A stretch of DNA of 64,000 nt from Thioalkalivibrio sp. ALMg11 (lineage in GTDB: Bacteria > Pseudomonadota > Gammaproteobacteria > Ectothiorhodospirales > Ectothiorhodospiraceae). Numbering within the stretch: the first letter of the stretch is position 1; each line of letters opens with the position of its first letter. Below the pieces are notes generated by a model. That model searched no databases, had not been told where the DNA came from, and saw nothing but the letters and a program-made list of their open reading frames with translations. The translations under genes and the position numbers were made by a program. The stretch is taken from the NCBI RefSeq assembly GCF_000377905.1, contig NZ_KB898874.1:372001-436000 (forward strand), read 5' to 3'. Of this stretch, positions 13,567 to 25,000 are shown in pieces.

Positions 13567-13748
13567 GGTTAGCCCCACACCACCCCGTCACCCCGCACAC
13601 CGCCCAACTCCACCCCGTCATCCCGCACACCGCCCAACCCCACCCCGTCATCCCGGACAGCGCGTAGCGGTGATCCGGGATCTCCCAGGCCGGGGAACCC
13701 CCAACGCCGGAGATCCCGGCTCTGCGCTACGCTTCGGCCCGGATGACG
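13567..13748 (-). repeat. Composite palindromic repeat, copy 1 (inverted) with short tandem repeats
   Basis: About three tandem copies of a 30-base unit (CACCCCGTCATCCCGCACAC...) lead into two hairpins: GTCATCCCGG...CCGGGATC and GATCCCGG...CCGGATGAC. This is the same composite repeat that recurs in the 31-40 kb island, but here in the opposite orientation. No gene is supported between 13563 and 13947. Confidence 0.8.
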
Positions 13749-13947: not shown

Positions 13948-14319
13948 CTAGTAGCCGGTGCTGCCGTGCACGTCCGGCGGGGCCTCGCGGGTCAGCATGG
14001 CCCAGGTCATGTGCGCCATCACCTCCGGCGCCACCACGGTATGCCGGTTACCGCTGTTCTGCATCCCCTCGCGCAGCTCCTGGCGGACCTGCGGCTGCCC
14101 GGTCAGATCGAAGATCACATCCACCTGATCCCCGCGTGCCACGAGATCCGCGACTGACTCCAGCGGGATCCCCTTCGCCTCGGCCAGCCGGCGGCCCTCG
14201 GTCTCGCCCTGCTCCGAGGCCGCGCAGATCGTCATCCCCGGCAGGCCGGTCTCCAGCAACATCTCCAGGAAACGGCCGCCCACCCGGCCAAGCCCCACCA
14301 CTGCAATCTGAATCGACAT
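13948..14319 (-). CDS. Small NAD(P)-binding Rossmann-fold protein
   Basis: A 123-residue protein that begins MSIQIAVVGLGRVGGRFLEM. The GLGRVG loop at residues 9-14 is a dinucleotide-binding glycine motif, and VDVIFDLTG resembles the second half of a Rossmann fold in homoserine or aspartate dehydrogenase-type proteins. It has only the nucleotide-binding domain and lacks a C-terminal catalytic domain, so it may be a redox sensor or partner subunit, not a full dehydrogenase. The ATG ending at 14319 follows GGAG, which decides the start over a longer in-frame extension. It is divergent from the XPF-like nuclease gene. Confidence 0.7.
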   Translation of the reverse strand: MSIQIAVVGLGRVGGRFLEMLLETGLPGMTICAASEQGETEGRRLAEAKGIPLESVADLVARGDQVDVIFDLTGQPQVRQELREGMQNSGNRHTVVAPEVMAHMTWAMLTREAPPDVHGSTGY

Positions 14320-14524
14320 ATGCACTCCATCCTTTTCTATTTTTGTTGTTTCCCTGCATGCCCACGGTTGCCACCGCCGGGCACGCTCCCCGACTGTAGG
14401 CCATGTGCGGCGTCCACGCACGCCAACCCGTACGCCCGGCTCGCCCCGCCCGCCATCCGGCCATTTGGAGCGGCCCGCGGCACGCCCTAGAGTGCCCTGA
14501 GTTTGCCAACCAACCGGAGCCCCC

Positions 14525-15172
14525 ATGGAAAACGTTCACCTGCCAATCCGCGCAGACCGCCGCGAACAGGGCAAGATCATTCAGCGCATCGAACGCCTGG
14601 AGGGAGTCGAACTGGAATTCACCGACCTCGACGTAGGTGACTACCTGCTGCCGAACGGCGTCGTGGTCGAACGCAAATCCGCCACCGACATGGTGCTCAG
14701 CGTCGTCGACAAGACCCTGTGGGAGAGCGCCGCCAAGCTGAAGGCCAACTACCAGCAGGTCGTCTACATCGTGGAGGGGGACCTCTACGAACCGCGTTTC
14801 CACCAGCAGGCGCTGGACATCCACCGCGCCCTGGCCCACCTGACAATCGCCCTCGGCATCAGCGTCCTGCCCAGCTCCGATGCCGACAACAGCGGCATGC
14901 TGATCTACCTGCTGGGCCTGAACGCACAGATCGAGCCGGACCCGTCTGACCGCCCGACCAAGCCGGACACCCGGCGCAAGGCCGCCGAATTCATCGTTAG
15001 CGGCCTGCCCGGCGTCGAGGCCGACCAGGCCCGCGACCTGCTCCGCGACATCGGCAGCGTGCGCGACATCATCAACGCCGACGCCGCCACCCTCGCCCAA
15101 GCCGACGGCCTCGACGCAGAACGCGCCGAACGCATCGAATCCGTCGTCACCTACGGCAGCCGCACCAGCTGA
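14525..15172 (+). CDS. Free-standing XPF/ERCC4-type nuclease with helix-hairpin-helix
   Basis: A 215-residue protein. The ERCC4 nuclease core has D11-R12-R13-E14, GDY at 38-40 and the catalytic signature ERKSATD at 49-55 (family pattern GDX(n)ERKX3D). A helix-hairpin-helix DNA-binding segment fills about 152-205, with two repeats around VSGLPGVEADQARDLL and ADGLDAERAERI. This architecture resembles archaeal XPF without the helicase. It should cut branched or flap DNA near duplex-single-strand junctions, possibly as a dimer. CGGAG precedes the ATG. There is no obvious operon partner. Confidence 0.85.
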   Translation: MENVHLPIRADRREQGKIIQRIERLEGVELEFTDLDVGDYLLPNGVVVERKSATDMVLSVVDKTLWESAAKLKANYQQVVYIVEGDLYEPRFHQQALDIHRALAHLTIALGISVLPSSDADNSGMLIYLLGLNAQIEPDPSDRPTKPDTRRKAAEFIVSGLPGVEADQARDLLRDIGSVRDIINADAATLAQADGLDAERAERIESVVTYGSRTS

Positions 15173-15314: not shown

Positions 15315-15701
15315 CTATACGAATTGAATGGGACCTGGGTAACGGCCAACGTGGGCGTCACTGGTCAGCAGCGTGTACCCCTCCGTTTCCGCCTGGGCAA
15401 TCAGGATGCGGTCGAATGGGTCCTTGTGAATATCGGGCAAATGGGTGACCGCCAGGGTGTGTGGACCGGTGATCGCAAGCTCCTCGTAACCATGCTCCAG
15501 CAACTCGCGACGAAGGACATGGGGCTCGACCACGAAATCCCTGCGCCCCAGCCCGTGCTTGATCACGATCTCCCACAAGCTCGCCGCACTAAACGCGATT
15601 GCGTTCTCCGGATTCAGGATGAGCTCGCGAGCACTGGCGGGCAATTTCGGGGAATCGGCCGCCGCCCAGAGCAGCAGATGCGTATCAAGAAGCAGGTGCA
15701 T
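15315..15701 (-). CDS. PIN-domain toxin (VapC-like)
   Basis: A 128-residue PIN-domain ribonuclease beginning MHLLLDTHLLLWAAA. The acidic metal ligands visible are D6, the E in SLWEIVI, and the Asp pair in DPFDRILIAQA. Such toxins cleave tRNA or rRNA. The ATG at 15701 has AGGGTG nine bases upstream; a GTG four codons earlier is less likely. It overlaps the 3' end of its antitoxin gene by 17 bases, so translation is coupled. Confidence 0.88.
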   Translation of the reverse strand: MHLLLDTHLLLWAAADSPKLPASARELILNPENAIAFSAASLWEIVIKHGLGRRDFVVEPHVLRRELLEHGYEELAITGPHTLAVTHLPDIHKDPFDRILIAQAETEGYTLLTSDAHVGRYPGPIQFV

Positions 15702-15951
15702 TCGGCTTATCACCCTGAAACAGCGCTGCGATCTCCGCCTCGCCCATCCGATCCAGATCGTCCGGGATCTCGAGCTGCCCTTTCAGGAAACCGATCCGGT
15801 CCGAAGCGGACTCTGGCGACGCCTCAATACGCGACAAACGCGCAATGGGCTTGCCCGCCCGAGCGATCACTACCGGCTCGCCCCGACTGACCTTCTCCAG
15901 CAGCCTGGAGAAGTGCGTCTTTGCCTCATGAATGTTGACAGTCTCGGTCAT
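15685..15951 (-). CDS. Phd/YefM-family antitoxin
   Basis: An 88-residue antitoxin beginning MTETVNIHEAKTHFSRLLEK, the classic Phd/YefM N-terminal fold with GEPVVIARAGKPIARL. The N-terminal half binds DNA and the C-terminus should neutralise the overlapping PIN toxin. GGGGGC precedes the ATG at 15951. It probably represses its own operon through the palindrome just upstream. Confidence 0.88.
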   Translation of the reverse strand: MTETVNIHEAKTHFSRLLEKVSRGEPVVIARAGKPIARLSRIEASPESASDRIGFLKGQLEIPDDLDRMGEAEIAALFQGDKPNAPAS

Positions 15952-15966
15952 GGTGCCCCCGACAAG

Positions 15967-15990
15967 GTTAGTCCGATTGATCAGACTAAC
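15967..15990. promoter_or_regulatory. Palindromic operator upstream of the Phd/PIN pair
   Basis: GTTAGTC and GACTAAC form a 7-bp inverted repeat around GATTGATC, starting 16 bases before the antitoxin ATG. The location and symmetry fit an autoregulatory operator bound by the antitoxin. Inferred only. Confidence 0.5.
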
Positions 15991-16064
15991 GCACAAGGAC
16001 CGCACTCGCCATTACTTGCCTGGCACACCGAAGGGCAAGAACGTAGCTACGGCGAATCGCCCAG

Positions 16065-16286
16065 CACCGTAGGATACGAAGAGCCTTGCGAATCGCATCG
16101 TTCACGGGCGATCCGGCGAAGTGATGCGATTCGCGGGGCTCATCGCATCCTACGATGCTGCCGAAAGCGGCCTCGGACAACGGACGTCGGACAACGGACG
16201 TAGGATGTGATGAGCGAAGCGAATCGCATCAGGGGGTGGGCGCTGCCACAAGACCGGTGCGTTTCGCGAAGCTCAACGCACCCTAC
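16065..16286. repeat. Cluster of GTAGGATG...GCGAATCGCATC intergenic repeats
   Basis: Four related palindromic units occur at about 16070-16100, 16127-16153, 16200-16231 and 16256-16286. They share GTAGGATG(C/T)GATGAGC...GCGAATCGCATC or its GGTGCGTTTCGCGAAGC...GCACCCTAC variant. Together they fill the gap between the TA pair and recD; no gene is supported there. Confidence 0.75.
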
Positions 16287-18373
16287 GGCGAGTCACGAAG
16301 CCACTGGCGCAAGCCGCCGCTGCGGCGGATCTGGCGCTGGCTGGCCGCGGCCAGCGTGCCCGCACGGGGTTCCAGCAGGCTGAACCAGCGGCTGGCGCGG
16401 GTGATCGCGGTGTAGGCCAGCTCGCGGGTCAGGATCGGGCTGTCCGCCTCCGGCAGGACCAGGGCCACATGCTCGAACTCCGAACCCTGGGCCTTATGCA
16501 CGGTCAGGGCAAAGGCGGTCTCGATGGCCTCCAGGCGGTTGGGCAGCACCCAGCGCACACGACCGCCGTCCCCGGCGGCCAGGAAGGCTACTCGCAGCAC
16601 CGGGGCATCTCCGTTGTCCGCTCCCGCCTCCGGCTCGCCCCGCGCCAGCCAGGCCGGGACCGCCAGGGCAATGCCGATATCGCCGTTGATCAACCCCAGC
16701 GCGTAGTCATTGCGCGTGACAATCACTGGGCGCCCCTCGACCCATTGCCCGTCGATTCGGCCCGCATCGCCCTCCAGCAACCCGCGCGCCTGTAGCGCTG
16801 CGGCGATGCGGCGGTTCAGCGTCTCCAGCCCCCACGGGCCGCGCCGCACCGCGCACAGGAGCTGGAATCGCCCGTGCGCCGCCAGCACGTCGCGCGCCCA
16901 GTCCTCCCAGGCCGCGCGCGGCGCCGCCGGGGCCGGCCGGGCCGCGCGCAGGCCCTCCAGATACCCAGCATAGCCCACCGCCTCGCCCTCCAGCGTGTCG
17001 GCGCGCCCGTCCACCGCGAGGGTCACCAGGGCCGGGTCCTCGGGCCCCGCGAGCACCTTTTGCAGGACGGCATCGTCCCCGTCCGGCGCATTCAACGCCT
17101 CGCCGCTATTCACCGCGGCGGCCAGCCGCCCGATCCCGCTGTCCGCGCCGAAGCGATGACTCTCGCGCAGCATCACGATGTGCTGGTCCAGGGCCTGGCC
17201 GGCCGCATCCTGCATGGCCTCCGGCACGGCCATCCCGGTCACGGCCTCCAGCCACTGCGCGGTCGACGGCGTGTAGTGGCCGCCGCCCGCGCGGTGGCAC
17301 AGCTCGCCCAGCACCGCGCCGGCCTCCACCGAGGCGAGCTGATCGCGATCCCCCAGCAGGATCAGGCGTGCCGTGCGCGGCACGGCCTCGACCAGGCTGG
17401 CCATCAGCTCCAGGTCGATCATCGAGGCCTCATCCACCACCAGCACGTCCACCGCTAGAGGGTTGCGCGCCCCGTGCCGGAAGTGCCGGGTATCCGGCCG
17501 CGCCCCGAGCAGGCGATGCACCGTCACCACCTCGGCCGGCAGGTTCCGGCGCAGCGCATCGCCATCGGGCAACTGGTCCAGCCCCAGGCGATCCAGCGCC
17601 CCGCTGACCGACGCATTCAAGCGCGCCGCCGCCTTGCCGGTCGGCGCGGCTAGGCGGATGCGCAACGGGTCCTCCGGACCCTGCAACCCCTGCAGCAGCG
17701 CGAGCAGCCGCAGTACCGTGGTGGTCTTGCCGGTCCCCGGCCCGCCGGTAATCACACTGAAGCCGGAACCCGCCGCCAGGGCACAGGCCAGGCGCTGCCA
17801 GTCCGGATCGGTGGTGGCCTCCGCCGGCGGCCCGAATAGATGATCCAGCCAGTCCCGCGCTGCCTGCTCGTCCAGCGCACCCTGCCAGGCCTCGCGGTCC
17901 GCGAGACGCGCGCGGATCGCCTGCCCGATGCGGCGCTCGCTCTCCCAGTAGCGGCGCAGATAGACCTGCTCCCCCGTGTACACCAGCGGCGTTCCGCCCG
18001 CCTCGCCCGGTCCCGCCAGGCCACTGCCCTGCAGGGCCTCCGCGACCTTGGCGGCGGACACCCCCTGCAGCACCGACGAGGGCCGCGGCGGGGGCCGCGA
18101 ACCCGGCTCGCCCTCCGGCGGCAGGGACAGCGTGGCGTCGGGGGCCTGCAGCAATGCGTCCAGTTCCAGACACACATGGCCGCGCCCGACCTGATGGCTG
18201 GCCAGCGCCGCCAGCAGCAGGGCCAGCGGCGACGCCGCCGGGGCCTGTTCGTGCAGGAAGCGCACCAGCGCCCGGTCCACGCCGCGCAGCCAGCCGGCGT
18301 CTTCCCACTCGCGCAGCAGCTCGAGCACGGCCTCCGCCGAGGCCAGAGGGCCCGTTGTCATCACCGCGCTCAT
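16283..18373 (-). CDS. recD: Exodeoxyribonuclease V, RecD helicase subunit
   Basis: The alpha subunit of RecBCD, a 5'-3' motor helicase in double-strand break repair. It has 696 residues with Walker A ITGGPGTGKTTTVLRLL, VLVVDEASMIDLELM (motif II) and the C-terminal helicase motif FALTVHKAQGSEFEHVALVLP. The start is the ATG overlapping the recB TGA (ATGA), which fits family N-termini better than the longer frame. It is the last gene of recC-recB-recD. Confidence 0.95.
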   Translation of the reverse strand: MSAVMTTGPLASAEAVLELLREWEDAGWLRGVDRALVRFLHEQAPAASPLALLLAALASHQVGRGHVCLELDALLQAPDATLSLPPEGEPGSRPPPRPSSVLQGVSAAKVAEALQGSGLAGPGEAGGTPLVYTGEQVYLRRYWESERRIGQAIRARLADREAWQGALDEQAARDWLDHLFGPPAEATTDPDWQRLACALAAGSGFSVITGGPGTGKTTTVLRLLALLQGLQGPEDPLRIRLAAPTGKAAARLNASVSGALDRLGLDQLPDGDALRRNLPAEVVTVHRLLGARPDTRHFRHGARNPLAVDVLVVDEASMIDLELMASLVEAVPRTARLILLGDRDQLASVEAGAVLGELCHRAGGGHYTPSTAQWLEAVTGMAVPEAMQDAAGQALDQHIVMLRESHRFGADSGIGRLAAAVNSGEALNAPDGDDAVLQKVLAGPEDPALVTLAVDGRADTLEGEAVGYAGYLEGLRAARPAPAAPRAAWEDWARDVLAAHGRFQLLCAVRRGPWGLETLNRRIAAALQARGLLEGDAGRIDGQWVEGRPVIVTRNDYALGLINGDIGIALAVPAWLARGEPEAGADNGDAPVLRVAFLAAGDGGRVRWVLPNRLEAIETAFALTVHKAQGSEFEHVALVLPEADSPILTRELAYTAITRASRWFSLLEPRAGTLAAASQRQIRRSGGLRQWLRDSP

Positions 18374-21300
18374 GCCGTCGCCTCCCGGTCCGGGCCAACC
18401 GCCATCCGGTGATCCAGCCATTCAATCAGTGCGCGCGGCGGGCAGTGGTGGAATACCCCGTGCCCCGGCGCATCCACGCCACGCAGGAACAGGTACACCC
18501 CGCCGCCCATATGCTGGTCGTAGTCGTAGCCCGGCAGGCGTGCGGCGAGCTGGCGATGCAGCGCCAGGGTGTAGAGCACCAACTGCAGGTCGTAGCGGTG
18601 CTCCAGCACGGCCGCCTGCAGGCGTTCCGGGGTATAGGCCTGCGCCGAAGTCCCCAGCCAGTTGGACTTGTAGTCCGCCACGTAATAGCGCCCGTCGTGC
18701 TCGAAGACCAGGTCGACGAACCCCTTCAACATCCCGTTCAGTGTCACGTTCCCCAGCGGCGGGCGCGGCTGTCCGGGCAGGATCTGCGCGCGTACCCCCT
18801 GATCCAGCTCAGCCGCCGATAGATTGAGCGTCGGGTACAGGAACTCCAGCTCCGGCTGATAGGTGGTCAGGCCACCCAGACTGAAGTGCTCGCCGTCCTC
18901 CAGCGGGAAGGCGACCCCGAGCAATTGCTGCATCCAGTCGTCGACCGTTGCCGACCACTCGCCCCAGCCTCGCCGCTCGCAGCGTGTCGCTACCTCCTGC
19001 GCCATCCGCTCGGGATACGCCGCCTGCGCGGCCAGTCCCTGCTCCGCCGCCCACTCCAGCAGGCCATGGAGGAAGGTGCCGGGCCCCGGCCCGCGCGGGA
19101 AGGCGTGCAGCCCGTTGGCCACGCGCGGCTCGGGCTCCGGCACCTCCACCAGCGGGCGGCTCGCATCCGCGACCCCCTCGCGCAGCACATCCTCGCGCGC
19201 CGAGTCGGGCGCCACAGGCGCCACCCCCTCGTCATGCGCGGCAATCGCACTGTAGCTGGCCACCCACCAGCGCTCGAAGCGGCGCGACGGCGGCACCCGG
19301 GCCGGCCCGGTAACGGTCGCGGCACCGCCCATCTGCGCGGCCACCGCGCGCACCTCCGGCAACGGGCCCACATGGATCGCCGTCTCGCCGCCGGCTGCCT
19401 CCCGCAGCGCGGCCTCCAGCCCGCCATCCGGCACCCCCGCGGCTCCGGCCAGCAGATATCCGGCTGCCGTGCGGTCGAAGTGGTTGGTCTTGCTGGTACC
19501 CGAGACGATCGGCGCAATCCCCAGCCAGCAGGCATGGCGCGCCCGGGTCATGCCCACATACAGCAGGCGCAGGTCCTCGGCCAGGCGCTCGCGCTCGGCC
19601 CGCTCGAACACCTCGTCGTCCATGCGGAACACCCAGCGCGCCCCGCCCTGCGGCGGATGGTCGCGGTAGGGCACGTCCTTCTTCGTATCCGTCTGGCGGA
19701 AATTGCAGACGAACGGCAGGAACACCAGCGGATACTCCAACCCCTTCGCCTTGTGCAGCGTGACCACCTTCACCAGGTCCTCGTCGCTCTCCAGACGCAG
19801 GACCTGCTCCTCGCCGGTCTCGCCTTCGCCACCGCGATGTTCGGTCAGGTGCCGGATCAGGGCCTGTTCGCCGTCCAGCTCGGCGGCCGCCTGCTGCAGC
19901 AGCTCACTCAGATGCAACAGGTTGGTCAGGGCACGCTCGCCCTCGGCCGTGGCCCGCAGCCGACGCGGGACCTCGAAGTCGTGCAGCAGCCGTCGCAGCA
20001 TCGGCAACACCCCGCGGGACTGCCACAGGCGCCGATAGTCGCGGAACTGCTCGACGCGCACCTCCCACGCCAGCTCGTCCACCGTCAGCCGGTGCAGCTC
20101 GGCGAGCGACTGCCCCAGCGTCGCGGTCGCCAGCGCCGCGCGTAGCAGACGCTCGCTGGTCGGCTCGGCGCAGGCCCGCAACCAGCGCAGCAGGTCCCCG
20201 GCCTCAGCGGTCGCATACACCGACTCGCGATCTGATAGGTACACACTCCGCACGCCGCGCCGGCGCAGCTCGGCCCGGATCACATCCGCCTCGCCACGTC
20301 CACGCACAAGCACGGCCATGTCGCGCGGGCGCAGCGCCGCCAGCGCCTCGCCCTTGCGGAAACCACAGGTACCCGATTCCCCGCCGTTGAGTAGCTCCAC
20401 CATGTAGCTGGCACAGGCCTGCGCCATGCGGTCGCGGTAGGCCCCCTTGGGCACCGGCTCGCCCGGATCAAAGCTCCACAGCGTGACGGCCGGCACCGCC
20501 TGCCCGCCACTCTCGAAGACCTCCGATCGACCGTTCGCGTCCACCGGCAGAAACGGCAGCGGGTTGTCCGTGCCCGAGCGGAACAGGAAGGCCCCGTCCG
20601 CCCAGCCCTCGGCGTGCTGGAACAGCCGGTTCACGCCCTTCACTAGGGCCTCGGTCGAACGGAAGTTGCGCTCCAGCGTGTAGTGCCGCCCGGCGGTGGC
20701 CGCGCGCGCGGCGAGATAGGTATGGATATCCGCCCCGCGAAAGCGATAGATGGACTGCTTGGGGTCGCCGATCAGCAGCACGCCCTGATCGCGCGGGTTC
20801 TCGTCGATGCGGTAGACGCGGTGGAAAATGCGGTACTGCACCGGGTCGGTATCCTGGAACTCGTCGACCAGCGCCACCGGGAACTGGGCGCGCAGGGTCG
20901 CCGCCAGGTGCTCGCCGCCGGGTCCGTCCAGGGCATCGCGCAGCCGGGTCAGCAGGTCATTGAAACCCATCTGCGCGCGCTGCCGCTGCGCCTGACGGAA
21001 CCGCGCGTCCACCTGCCGCGCGGCCGCCTGCAACAGGCGCTCGCGGTCATCCACGCAGACCTCGGCATGATCGTCCAGCCCCGCAAAGGCCGGATGCAGA
21101 TCGTCCGGAAGCGCCTGCCCGGCCTTCAGCCGCGCCTGCATGCCAGCCGCACTGAAGCGCACCAACGGCGAGTCGCCCGAGACCCCGCTTGGACGTAACG
21201 CGCCGGGGTCCTCCGCCCAGTCGCGCATCGCCCCCAGCAGCTTTTCCGGGTTGCTGTACTTCTGCTTGTTCAGCACCGAGTCGCGCAGCGTCTCGAACTG

Positions 21301-22062
21301 CTCGGCCACCGCCGCGAACGCCTCGCGCCAGGGCCGCTTCATGGCCTCCAGCCGCGCCAGTCGATGGCCGAGGGCGGCCGTCAGCCCTTCCGGCGTCTCC
21401 AGTTCGGCATCCGCCGCGCTGGGCGGGAGATGCCCCACCAGCGGCCGGATCTTCTGCAGCAGCGTGTCGGGATCGGCACCGAAGGCGTTGCGCAGCAGCG
21501 CGAGTGGCTCCGGCGGTTGCGGATAGACAAAGCGGCGCCAGTAGTCGCGTGCCGCGTCCGCCAGCAGCTCCTGCTGGTCGCTCGCCAGGTCCTGGGTAAA
21601 CAAGCTCCCGCTGTCGAAGGCGTGCTCGCGCAACATGCGGTAGCACCAGCCGTGGATGGTGGAGACCGCAGCCTCGTCCATCCACTCTGCCGCCAGCTCC
21701 AACCGGCGCGCGGCACCCGGGCGCTCCGCCTCGGTGTATTCGTTGCGCAACTGCTTGTGGATGTCCTGGACGCCCGGCACTGCGTCCGGGTCTTCCGCGC
21801 GGAACACGCGCGCCGCGGTCGCCAGCGCGTCGCGGATGCGCTCGCGCAGCTCCTGGGTCGCCGCCTCGGTAAAGGTCATCACCAAGATCTGCGGCGGCGT
21901 CAGGGCATCGGTGCCCTCCGGCAATTCGCCGTGGCCCAGCACCAGGCGCAGGTACAGCGCGGCAATGGTGTAAGTCTTGCCGGTGCCGGCACTCGCCTCG
22001 ATCAGGCGGCTGCCGTGCAGGGGTAGCGCCAGCAGATCCAGCTTGTGTGCAAAACCGGTCAT
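18370..22062 (-). CDS. recB: Exodeoxyribonuclease V, RecB helicase-nuclease subunit
   Basis: The beta subunit of RecBCD, a 3'-5' helicase and the complex's nuclease. Its 1230 residues match the family. Walker A ASAGTGKT lies at about residues 24-31. UvrD-type motifs follow (ALVDEFQDTDPVQYRIF, GDPKQSIYRFRGADI, VVTLHKAKGLEYPLVFLP). The C-terminal RecB nuclease motif is YYVADYKSNWLG, with catalytic D and K near 1129. Its ATG overlaps the recC TGA by one base. Confidence 0.97.
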   Translation of the reverse strand: MTGFAHKLDLLALPLHGSRLIEASAGTGKTYTIAALYLRLVLGHGELPEGTDALTPPQILVMTFTEAATQELRERIRDALATAARVFRAEDPDAVPGVQDIHKQLRNEYTEAERPGAARRLELAAEWMDEAAVSTIHGWCYRMLREHAFDSGSLFTQDLASDQQELLADAARDYWRRFVYPQPPEPLALLRNAFGADPDTLLQKIRPLVGHLPPSAADAELETPEGLTAALGHRLARLEAMKRPWREAFAAVAEQFETLRDSVLNKQKYSNPEKLLGAMRDWAEDPGALRPSGVSGDSPLVRFSAAGMQARLKAGQALPDDLHPAFAGLDDHAEVCVDDRERLLQAAARQVDARFRQAQRQRAQMGFNDLLTRLRDALDGPGGEHLAATLRAQFPVALVDEFQDTDPVQYRIFHRVYRIDENPRDQGVLLIGDPKQSIYRFRGADIHTYLAARAATAGRHYTLERNFRSTEALVKGVNRLFQHAEGWADGAFLFRSGTDNPLPFLPVDANGRSEVFESGGQAVPAVTLWSFDPGEPVPKGAYRDRMAQACASYMVELLNGGESGTCGFRKGEALAALRPRDMAVLVRGRGEADVIRAELRRRGVRSVYLSDRESVYATAEAGDLLRWLRACAEPTSERLLRAALATATLGQSLAELHRLTVDELAWEVRVEQFRDYRRLWQSRGVLPMLRRLLHDFEVPRRLRATAEGERALTNLLHLSELLQQAAAELDGEQALIRHLTEHRGGEGETGEEQVLRLESDEDLVKVVTLHKAKGLEYPLVFLPFVCNFRQTDTKKDVPYRDHPPQGGARWVFRMDDEVFERAERERLAEDLRLLYVGMTRARHACWLGIAPIVSGTSKTNHFDRTAAGYLLAGAAGVPDGGLEAALREAAGGETAIHVGPLPEVRAVAAQMGGAATVTGPARVPPSRRFERWWVASYSAIAAHDEGVAPVAPDSAREDVLREGVADASRPLVEVPEPEPRVANGLHAFPRGPGPGTFLHGLLEWAAEQGLAAQAAYPERMAQEVATRCERRGWGEWSATVDDWMQQLLGVAFPLEDGEHFSLGGLTTYQPELEFLYPTLNLSAAELDQGVRAQILPGQPRPPLGNVTLNGMLKGFVDLVFEHDGRYYVADYKSNWLGTSAQAYTPERLQAAVLEHRYDLQLVLYTLALHRQLAARLPGYDYDQHMGGGVYLFLRGVDAPGHGVFHHCPPRALIEWLDHRMAVGPDREATA

Positions 22063-25000
22063 CAAGAGGTCTCCGCCTGGCCCACGACGACGTACACCGG
22101 CCGGTAGATCCGGTCGCGCCAGAAGGCGAAGTCCGGATCGTCCAGCAGGGTCTCAGGGTCGGGCCAGGCGCGCGCCAGCGCCGGGCTGCGCGACCACTCG
22201 CCCGCGACGAAGTCGTTCCCGCGCAGGGTCTTCACGGCCTCTTCATAAGGATCCTTCGATCCGTCTTCCGCCGCGAGCCAGGCAAAGGCCGCACCACAGG
22301 CCAGCGGCAGCGGCCGTGCCTGCCCCGCCACCCAGGCCTCCAGCAACGTGCCCAGCAACTCCTCGGCCAGCCCCGGTTCCAGCCCCGGGAGCTCCAGGCG
22401 CTTGTCCAGCCCGACCAGCTCGGAACCCACGCCGCCCGCGCCGGCATTCGCCAGCAGATGCATCACCCAGGGCGCCATCAGCTTGTCGAAGCGCCACTTC
22501 TTGCCATCCCCGATGCGGCTCGCGGTGTAGTCGAGGCACACCCGCGCCTGCCCGTCGCTGCGCAGGGCGGGCGGCACCCCCTCCAGGCCCCAGTGCTCGT
22601 GTTCCAGCCGCAAGGGCCGCGCCGCCGGCAACCACTCGGGGTACAGCGCATAGCGCTCCCCGATCCGCTCCAGCAGCCGCGCGGCCTCCTCCACCATCGC
22701 GCCGCGCTCCAGCTCGCCCGCCGCCCCCAGCGGCAGGCGACCCGCGCGCTGCAATCGACCCGACTCCGCCTCCAGGATCGCCGGCCAGGCCTCCGCGTCG
22801 TCGGTCGTCTCCAGTGCCGCCGCGACCAGCTGCTGGCGCACCTGCCACTGCTCCAGCCCGGCCAGTCCGAAGGGTTCCAGGTCGTCGCCGGCCTCTTCCT
22901 CCTCGTCGAAGAACACCCCCAGGCGATGGCGGAAGAAGGCCTCCACCGGAAAGCGCAGAAAACGCGTCAACGCCTCCGGCCCCAGGGCGCGCGGCTCGCG
23001 CTCGGCCTCCAGCAGCGGCACGGCCGCGGGGGCGCCACCATCGGCATCCGCCGCAGGGGCCGACACCGTGTCGTGCACCGCCTCCCATTCCCGCGCGTAG
23101 GTAAAGTGCCGATCGCCGGCGGCGTCCGCCGCCGGGAAGTTCACCGGCGAGAACGGCTGCAGCGGGTGCCAGGTGGTCAGGTGTTTCACCAGGGCCGGGC
23201 CAGCCTCCGGCCCGTCGGTCTCGACAAGTCCCCAGCCCGCGGCCAGGTGATCGCGCAGCTGGCCGACCAGCACCGACGGCGGGCGCGGCTCGTTGTCGCG
23301 CACATGCCGCCCCACCCAGCTCACATGCAGCTGGCGCCGCGCGGAGAGCAGCGCCTCCAGGAACAGGTAGCGGTCGTCCTCGCGGCGCGAACGATCGCCC
23401 GGGCGGTAATCGTTCGCCATCAAGTCGAAGTCGACCGGCGTCGGACTGCGCGGGTAGTCGCCGTCGTTCATCCCCAGCAGGCAGACCACCTGGAACGGGA
23501 TTGCCCGCATCGGCATCAGGGTGCAGAAATTCACCTGCCCGGCCAGGAAGCGCTGACCAACCCCGGAATCGTCCTGGCTCGCCAGCCACTGCTCGCGCAC
23601 CACCGCCAGCGGCAGGGCCTCTTCCAGGCCCGCCGCCGCGCAATCCTCGCGCCACTGATCCAGGGCCTCGCCGAGCTGCTCCAGGGTGAACAGCTCGGCA
23701 TCGGTCTCGGCCGCGAGGAACTGCTCCAGCAGCCCGCCCAGGTGCACGGCCCAGTCCTCCGGCGTATGCGCCTGGCGCAGCCACGCCCAGGCATCCTCCA
23801 GGGCGGTGATCAGGGCATCCATCGGCCCCAGCAGCGCGGCACTCAGCCCGCCGATCTCGTCGTAGGGCTCCAGGCCCTGCCACGGCCCCTGATCGCCCAT
23901 CGCGTAGCCCAGCAGCATCCGCCGCAGGCCGAAGCGCCAGGTGTTCTGCTCCAGCCCCTCGGGCAAGCCCAGCCCGGCGCGCTGCGCGGCATCCAGCCCC
24001 CAGCGCACGCCAGACCCCTCGGCCCAGCGGTGCAGCTGCCCCAGGTCCTCCTCCGCGATCCCGAAGCGCCGACGCACCGCCGGGACATCCAGCAGGTCCA
24101 GCAACTCGCTGACGCCCACCCGGCTCTCCGGCAGCGACAGCAGTTGCTCCAGCGCGATCAGTACCGGGTCGCGGCCGCGCGGGCCCTGGTCGGACAGCGT
24201 GTACGGGATAAACCGGGGATCATCGGTCTCCGGCTGACCGAACACCGCCTCGATATGCGGCGCGTACTGATCGATGTCCGGCACCATCACAATTACGTCG
24301 CGCGGGCGCAGTGCGGGGTCGCGCTCGAAGTGGTCCAGCAGACGGTCATGCAACAGCTCCACCTCGCGCAGCGGGCTGTGCGCCACATGGAACTGGATGG
24401 AGTGATCCTCGGCCGCAACGGCGGGCCAGGCTGCCCGGGTCTCCGCCAGCGGGCGCAGCTCGCGGATGTCGTCCTGCAGCTGGTGCAGCAGGCAGTCCTC
24501 GGGCCCGCGCACGCCATGCGGCTCGAAGACATCGACGCGTTCCCAGTCCAGCGTCCGCAGCACCCGGCCGTAGTGTTCGGGGTCGTCGTGCTCGTCCAGC
24601 AGCCCGATGTAGTCGCGGCCCTGCTTGCCCCAGGCCGCCAGCAGCGGGTGGGCATGGTTGTGCAGCTCCGCCTCGTCAAGGGCCTCCGGCATCCCCGCCT
24701 TGCGCGCCTGGCGCCGGCGCGTGGCGCGCAGCAGGTCCTTGTCGGCCACGATGTCGGCCCAGTAGTACTCGCAGGGGTTGTGCACGCAGACCAGCACCTG
24801 GCAGAACCGCGCCAGGCCCTCCAACGCCTCCAGGATTTGCCCCGGCAACGAGGAGATACCGAACACGATAATCCGCCGGGGCAGACCGGCCGGGCGCTGC
24901 TCCAGCGCGCGCACCGCGTCCATGTAGCGCCCATGCACCGCGGAGCGGCTGACCGCCTCCCGCGCCACACCGATATCCGCCTGCAGCAGGCGCCACAGCT

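Follow-up and report, generated by a model that had tools for sequence, protein, structure and literature searches.

A stand-alone XPF/ERCC4-type nuclease with a helix-hairpin-helix region in the bacterial genus Thioalkalivibrio

Background

XPF-family nucleases have been treated mainly as repair enzymes of archaea and eukaryotes. The crenarchaeal XPF (Aeropyrum pernix, PDB 2bgw/2bhn) is a short protein in which an ERCC4 nuclease domain is followed by tandem helix-hairpin-helix (HhH) motifs and from which a helicase is absent. Euryarchaeal Hef (Pyrococcus furiosus, PDB 1j22 and 1x2i) has an N-terminal SF2 helicase in addition. The XPF-ERCC1, MUS81-EME1 and FANCM-FAAP24 complexes belong to the same superfamily and are heterodimers formed within larger proteins. 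PMC7776575 describes the XPF of S. solfataricus as PCNA-dependent, and the Hef of Haloferax volcanii as an enzyme that cuts branched DNA and is linked to fork restart rather than to excision repair. According to the same paper, Hef is dispensable in H. volcanii but cannot be deleted in the absence of Hjc, and it is needed when homologous recombination is lacking. A review (PMC7690668) likewise links XPF and Hef to the restart of replication and to the processing of Holliday junctions. The bacterial nucleases RuvC and UvrC, whose nuclease domains are unrelated to ERCC4, act on recombination intermediates and lesions, which is partly the job proposed below for the protein described here.

The bacterial branch of the family is apparently annotated but uncharacterised. 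Searches of the open-licence literature for the function of bacterial XPF/ERCC4 proteins returned only eukaryotic or archaeal work and annotation lists, such as a bacterial genome paper that lists COG1948 'ERCC4-type nuclease' without studying it (PMC10710014). No functional study of a bacterial member was found in print there, which agrees with the original prediction that the role of such a nuclease is not established. Because the family is already annotated, the surprise is moderate. A compact, intact and conserved bacterial XPF in a culturable genus nevertheless raises the question of why it is kept beside RuvC and UvrC.

Domain architecture and active site

The gene lies in the window, a 64,000-nucleotide stretch of the genome of the sulfur bacterium Thioalkalivibrio sp. 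ALMg11. It is a single open reading frame with an ATG start and a GGAG sequence (14516-14519) located 5 nt on its 5' side (Table 1). Pfam assigns an ERCC4 domain to residues 11-129 of the 215-residue product (68.4 bits against a cut-off of 24, E = 7.9e-19) and an HHH_5 domain to residues 160-204 (30.6 bits against a cut-off of 27). The catalytic line reads GDY-LLPNGVVV-ERK-SAT-D, and D11, G38, D39, E49, K51 and D55 are invariant in an alignment of 17 relatives (17/17). The strict pattern GD[YF]...ERKxxxD is present in all 27 Thioalkalivibrio-type rows (clades A and B, see below) and in 46 of the 53 bacterial rows examined; the seven that deviate are L022, L023, L081, L082, L086, L089 and L091. 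Two of these, L022 and L023 (genomes G166 and G280), form a sister lineage of the Thioalkalivibrio clade and have E/D-Y-K in place of ERK.

The protein therefore combines an ERCC4 domain above its cut-off, the GD...ERKxxxD motif and a C-terminal tandem HhH region, and no helicase domain was matched in it by the Pfam and NCBIfam searches. Pfam, the alignment and the PDB matches agree on an intact ERKXXXD site and a C-terminal HhH region without a helicase in 215 residues, just as originally described. The sequence match is well beyond chance, and by this measure the protein is an XPF/ERCC4-HhH nuclease. A single-chain AlphaFold model, for which ten near-identical sequences served as input, is poor (mean pLDDT 53) and was set aside.

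Table 1. Positions of the nuclease gene and neighbouring features in the window.
Feature	Position	Strand	Basis
Divergent context gene with weak Rossmann-like similarity (under Pfam cut-offs); no partner of the nuclease	13948..14319	-	ORF, Pfam
Promoter-like pair TTTGGA - 18 nt - TAGAGT (predicted)	14464..14493	+	Upstream alignment
ERCC4/XPF-type nuclease with C-terminal HhH region, 215 aa	14525..15172	+	ORF; Pfam ERCC4, HHH_5; PDB matches
Active-site stretch G38-D39-Y40 ... E49-R50-K51-SAT-D55	14636..14689	+	Alignment of 17 relatives
Tandem helix-hairpin-helix region, residues 160-204	15002..15136	+	Pfam HHH_5
PIN toxin/Phd antitoxin pair; inserted neighbour, outside the nuclease unit	15315..16005	-	Pfam
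Imperfect inverted repeats, 33 + 38 nt (candidate MITE of the original prediction); neighbour only	16062..16231	.	Repeat search
recD; adjacent to the nuclease gene in some Thioalkalivibrio only	16283..18421	-	Pfam RecD_N; context comparison
recB	18370..22065	-	Pfam UvrD-helicase, PDDEXK_1

Similarity to described nucleases

In the PDB, the nuclease is closest in sequence to the nuclease domain of P. furiosus Hef (E = 7e-20), then to A. pernix XPF (E = 3e-19), and FANCM and XPF rank after them. The A. pernix alignment spans residues 10-208, which include both the nuclease and the HhH domains, and a profile built from 17 relatives strengthens this match to E = 4e-53. Among NCBIfam models the nearest is also Hef, followed by archaeal Xpf. 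The Hef model (NF010337) scores 140.7 bits against a cut-off of 610 and aligns residues 7-209 with model positions 572-776; the score falls far below the cut-off because the helicase part is missing. The archaeal Xpf equivalog (NF040956) gives 82.6 bits, under its cut-off of 300, and the host here is a bacterium. Hef is thus the top match by both NCBIfam score and PDB nuclease domain but differs by its helicase, whereas crenarchaeal XPF shares the length, the domain order and the lack of a helicase. Judged from the sequence, the architecture is that of the short crenarchaeal form, a nuclease followed by tandem HhH motifs.

Unlike the eukaryotic heterodimers, which share the fold and motif by sequence match, the window protein is the only ERCC4 match in its host genome (3.04 Mb), and a heterodimer of two ERCC4 proteins is consequently unlikely. 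The protein ends 7 residues past the HhH region, and a search of the tails found no clamp-binding motif either in it or in any of the 27 Thioalkalivibrio-type rows (27/27), whose tails are 4-7 residues long. 'ERCC4 domain-containing proteins' encoded on plasmids and chromosomes of Pseudomonadota have the same domains and, in the best records, approximately 32% identity over 92-97% of the query. Differences include extensions or tails in several of them and changed or missing catalytic residues in a few.

Distribution among genomes

The nuclease is rare among the sampled bacteria and nearly fixed in Thioalkalivibrio. Of 30 genomes of the genus, host included, 26 have an ERCC4 protein, and the nine near relatives in named genomes, which are 83-99% identical, all belong to this genus. 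The gene is missing from G013 and G014, both complete (3.8-4.0 Mb), from G032 (66% complete) and from G038; two of these assemblies are only 66% complete or split into 320 contigs. Absence from 4/30 implies that the gene is dispensable. Sampling was confined to Pseudomonadota, in which the count is 29/47 for the family (the order sample is the identical 47), 11/274 for the class (host included, with two from the genus itself) and 6/398 for the phylum (host included). It is 3/74 in another family of the phylum and 3/3 in the small family that contains G166. Among 14 control genomes the search is positive in four, all of them archaea. The bacterial XPF-type nuclease of the original prediction is real, but it is not a one-off: at least 152 plasmid records contain relatives.

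When the family profile is compared with the 11 matches in the class, G135 has no match and G082 a weak one, and these may be other ERCC4 proteins. Genome G072 has a Thioalkalivibrio-like ERCC4 reading frame (L072:7229-8301) in which similarity stops near residue 138 and the HhH region is missing or out of frame.

Phylogeny and selection

The tree comprises 53 rows, with L002 (159 aa, no HhH), L021 (141 aa, truncated) and L025 (weak match) left out. Its archaeal references are two solved proteins, one of them a nuclease domain only, and three viral proteins. Chromosomal Thioalkalivibrio copies make up clade A (15 rows, support 100/99) and clade B (12 rows, support 99/97), the latter including one genome from another family (L020, G172). 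The two clades unite at 100/98, and L022 and L023 join next at 100/99. A phylogeny against archaeal XPF, the check attached to the original prediction, therefore recovers the Thioalkalivibrio chromosomal copies as one supported clade, while the join with archaeal proteins is not fixed among long deep branches and few archaeal rows. A topology that groups all bacterial rows against the rest is compatible with the data (p-AU = 0.31). Taking the copy of plasmid pTK9001 (L067) out of that group leads to rejection (p = 0.026), which indicates that this copy may fall among the bacterial rows.

The window gene has dN/dS values of 0.043-0.221 against nine clade A relatives and of 0.41-0.53 against four clade B sequences, for which synonymous sites are near saturation. 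Its GC3 is 0.874, compared with 0.875 for the neighbouring recB. Given the presence in 26/30 genomes of the genus, the low dN/dS, the single supported chromosomal clade and the recB-like GC3, the gene looks like an old resident under purifying selection.

Genomic context

In an alignment of ten upstream regions, TTTGG of the promoter-like pair is kept in 8/10 relatives and TAGAGT occurs with one variant, which suggests a dedicated promoter for the nuclease gene. A search of 14320-14524 that allowed up to one mismatch found no LexA-like box, and the whole window contains 10 such matches where 14.5 are expected. SOS control was rejected for want of a LexA-like box just upstream.

Downstream, Pfam matches support the toxin-antitoxin (TA) pair of the original prediction: the PIN-domain protein spans 15315-15713 (-) and the Phd/YefM antitoxin 15685-16005 (-). 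The window, L027 and L028 have this pair between the nuclease gene and recD. It is absent there in L026 and L029, where recD is within about 0.3 kb of the nuclease gene. Presence at three of the five recD-adjacent loci indicates that the TA pair is probably a separate, later insertion. Another inverted-repeat pair with 40 nt arms occurs upstream at 13646-13748, and a similar repeat is found in the L026 spacer, from which the TA pair is absent.

The adjacency to recD itself, seen in five genomes (window and L026-L029), is limited to a part of clade A, and in the window the two genes are convergent. Downstream of the nuclease gene, the five loci of a second group have a ferredoxin gene, and an LrgB gene lies close by in seven loci of clade B. 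An intercomparison of the reading frames of 41 loci and the window shows no gene other than the nuclease that is shared by all groups; a small partner could be missed here because these reading frames were called mechanically rather than curated. Pfam searches of 19 chosen neighbours likewise reveal no shared repair partner. A conserved operon partner was rejected, as neighbours differ from group to group and outside the recD group are mostly unrelated to repair. The promoter-like sequence together with the lack of a conserved partner suggests a free-standing function.

A different arrangement occurs in genome G008, where at L042:5627-8379 a RecD2-type helicase reading frame (HHH_RecD2) directly follows, on the same strand, a 159-aa ERCC4 protein without HhH. 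These two could form a nuclease-helicase pair.

Proposed function and alternatives

We consider it probable that the protein is a stand-alone XPF-type structure-specific endonuclease that serves as a back-up at stalled forks and recombination intermediates, with its substrate, polarity and dimeric state taken from homology. The enzyme would be a homodimer held together by its nuclease and HhH domains. The HhH pair would grip the duplex arms at a branch, and a Mg/Mn-dependent site would cut one strand, most likely of a 3' flap, fork or joint molecule. If duplex opening is needed, it may be supplied in trans by a housekeeping helicase. Such an activity would back up RuvABC and the Uvr system, much as Hef acts beside Hjc in H. 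volcanii. Among the family's 47 genomes, 44 have a RuvC match and 46 a UvrC match, and the host genome has both, which implies that the nuclease adds to these enzymes and is not a stand-in for them. A replacement of either was rejected, as both are kept in the host and in nearly all family genomes. Two nuclease-bearing genomes have no RuvC match, G031 (58% complete) and G040 (100% complete); the latter could reflect an assembly gap or a broken gene.

The gene might instead have been brought in recently on a mobile element that it serves; in this view, which takes up the transfer suggested in the original prediction, the TA pair and MITE would be marks of the event. Relatives reside on many large plasmids, the Thioalkalivibrio plasmid pTK9001 has a divergent second copy, distribution outside the genus is patchy (11/274 in the class and 6/398 in the phylum) and the genus clade includes one copy (L020, G172) from another family. 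However, the gene is present in 26/30 genomes of the genus in a chromosomal clade with 100/98 support, it combines low dN/dS with recB-like GC3, and the TA pair, missing at two of five loci, comes and goes beside a constant gene. These observations do not support the flanking elements as a sign of transfer and lead us to reject a recent transfer together with the TA pair; service to a mobile element is improbable, although the gene may have come from a plasmid long ago and been domesticated since. The patchy distribution and mobile relatives could also fit a nuclease of anti-phage or anti-plasmid defence that acts on branched or replicating DNA of foreign origin, and one plasmid copy has a neighbour annotated as Shedu-like. 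This explanation is quite improbable in view of the PADLOC models, no family of which matches the nuclease at E up to 1, the lack of a fused toxin-like or sensor domain, the inconstant TA pair and the fact that archaeal viruses themselves carry relatives.

The neighbouring recD in five genomes might be taken to mean that the nuclease is an accessory of RecBCD in DNA end processing. This is very improbable, because the neighbours in other Thioalkalivibrio groups are ferredoxin, LrgB or other genes and the convergent orientation in the window leaves no operon shared with recD. A mainly structural DNA-binding role in which the nuclease is unused in the cell, as in ERCC1 or the nuclease-like domain of FANCM, would have precedent in some Pseudomonas plasmid relatives that lack the catalytic positions. 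The full motif in 27/27 Thioalkalivibrio-type rows makes such a role hardly credible here, and a catalytically active back-up endonuclease is the reading we prefer.

Relatives on plasmids and in viruses

Among 72,556 plasmid records, 152 contain a match that covers 80% or more of the window protein, and 136 of these are from Pseudomonas. Plasmid sizes range from 138 kb to 1.32 Mb among the 60 matches listed, and most relatives are annotated 'ERCC4 domain-containing protein', which places the nuclease in a known but uncharacterised bacterial family. No matching record shows a second ERCC4 place (163 places in 163 records), so that at the sensitivity of the search no single plasmid encodes a partner pair. 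The matches include pTTS12 of P. putida S12, an IncP-2 plasmid whose description does not mention ERCC4 in its main text (PMC9537497). In Thioalkalivibrio sp. K90mix, plasmid pTK9001 encodes a divergent ERCC4-HhH protein that is extended at its N-terminus and 343 aa long (L081:7608-8639), and genome G016 also has a chromosomal copy.

Five of ten Pseudomonas plasmid rows (L039, L040, L088, L089 and L090) have the pattern Q-[PQ]-[ST]-L-[FL] in a 27-residue tail after the HhH region, which we take to resemble a beta-clamp binding motif. The pattern was defined after the tails were viewed, and when one tail is shuffled a like pattern appears in 62 of 20,000 trials. Two ERCC4-HhH proteins, L086:4983-5690 (pKF715A) and L091:1483-2190 (a P. 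aeruginosa plasmid), have lost catalytic positions and are encoded next to an annotated plasmid recA; a third record has an identical protein of this type. A broader scenario, unlikely as a whole although conceivable, is that bacteria have an XPF branch of their own, acting on branched DNA, which is maintained by large, low-copy plasmids and became domesticated on the Thioalkalivibrio chromosome, with some plasmid members tethered to the sliding clamp through a C-terminal Q-x-S/T-L-F/L tail and catalytically dead paralogues beside plasmid recA. As part of this scenario, the putative clamp tail might be the bacterial counterpart of PCNA tethering in archaeal XPF. The relatives in Pseudomonas and other Pseudomonadota raise the questions of whether such enzymes help large plasmids to replicate or repair their DNA and whether bacteria, like archaea, evolved a tether between XPF and the clamp.

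Three single-protein scans of viral contigs yielded no relatives. In a phage collection, the window protein matches two records of one Methanobacteriales virus, and the L079 protein matches nine records, of which seven are archaeal viruses and two are uvrC HhH matches. ERCC4 proteins are found in the archaeal viruses L084, L085 and L041, whose hosts are Methanobacteriales and Haloarcula. In vir249, the ERCC4 gene lies near genes annotated as a DNA repair exonuclease and a sliding clamp.
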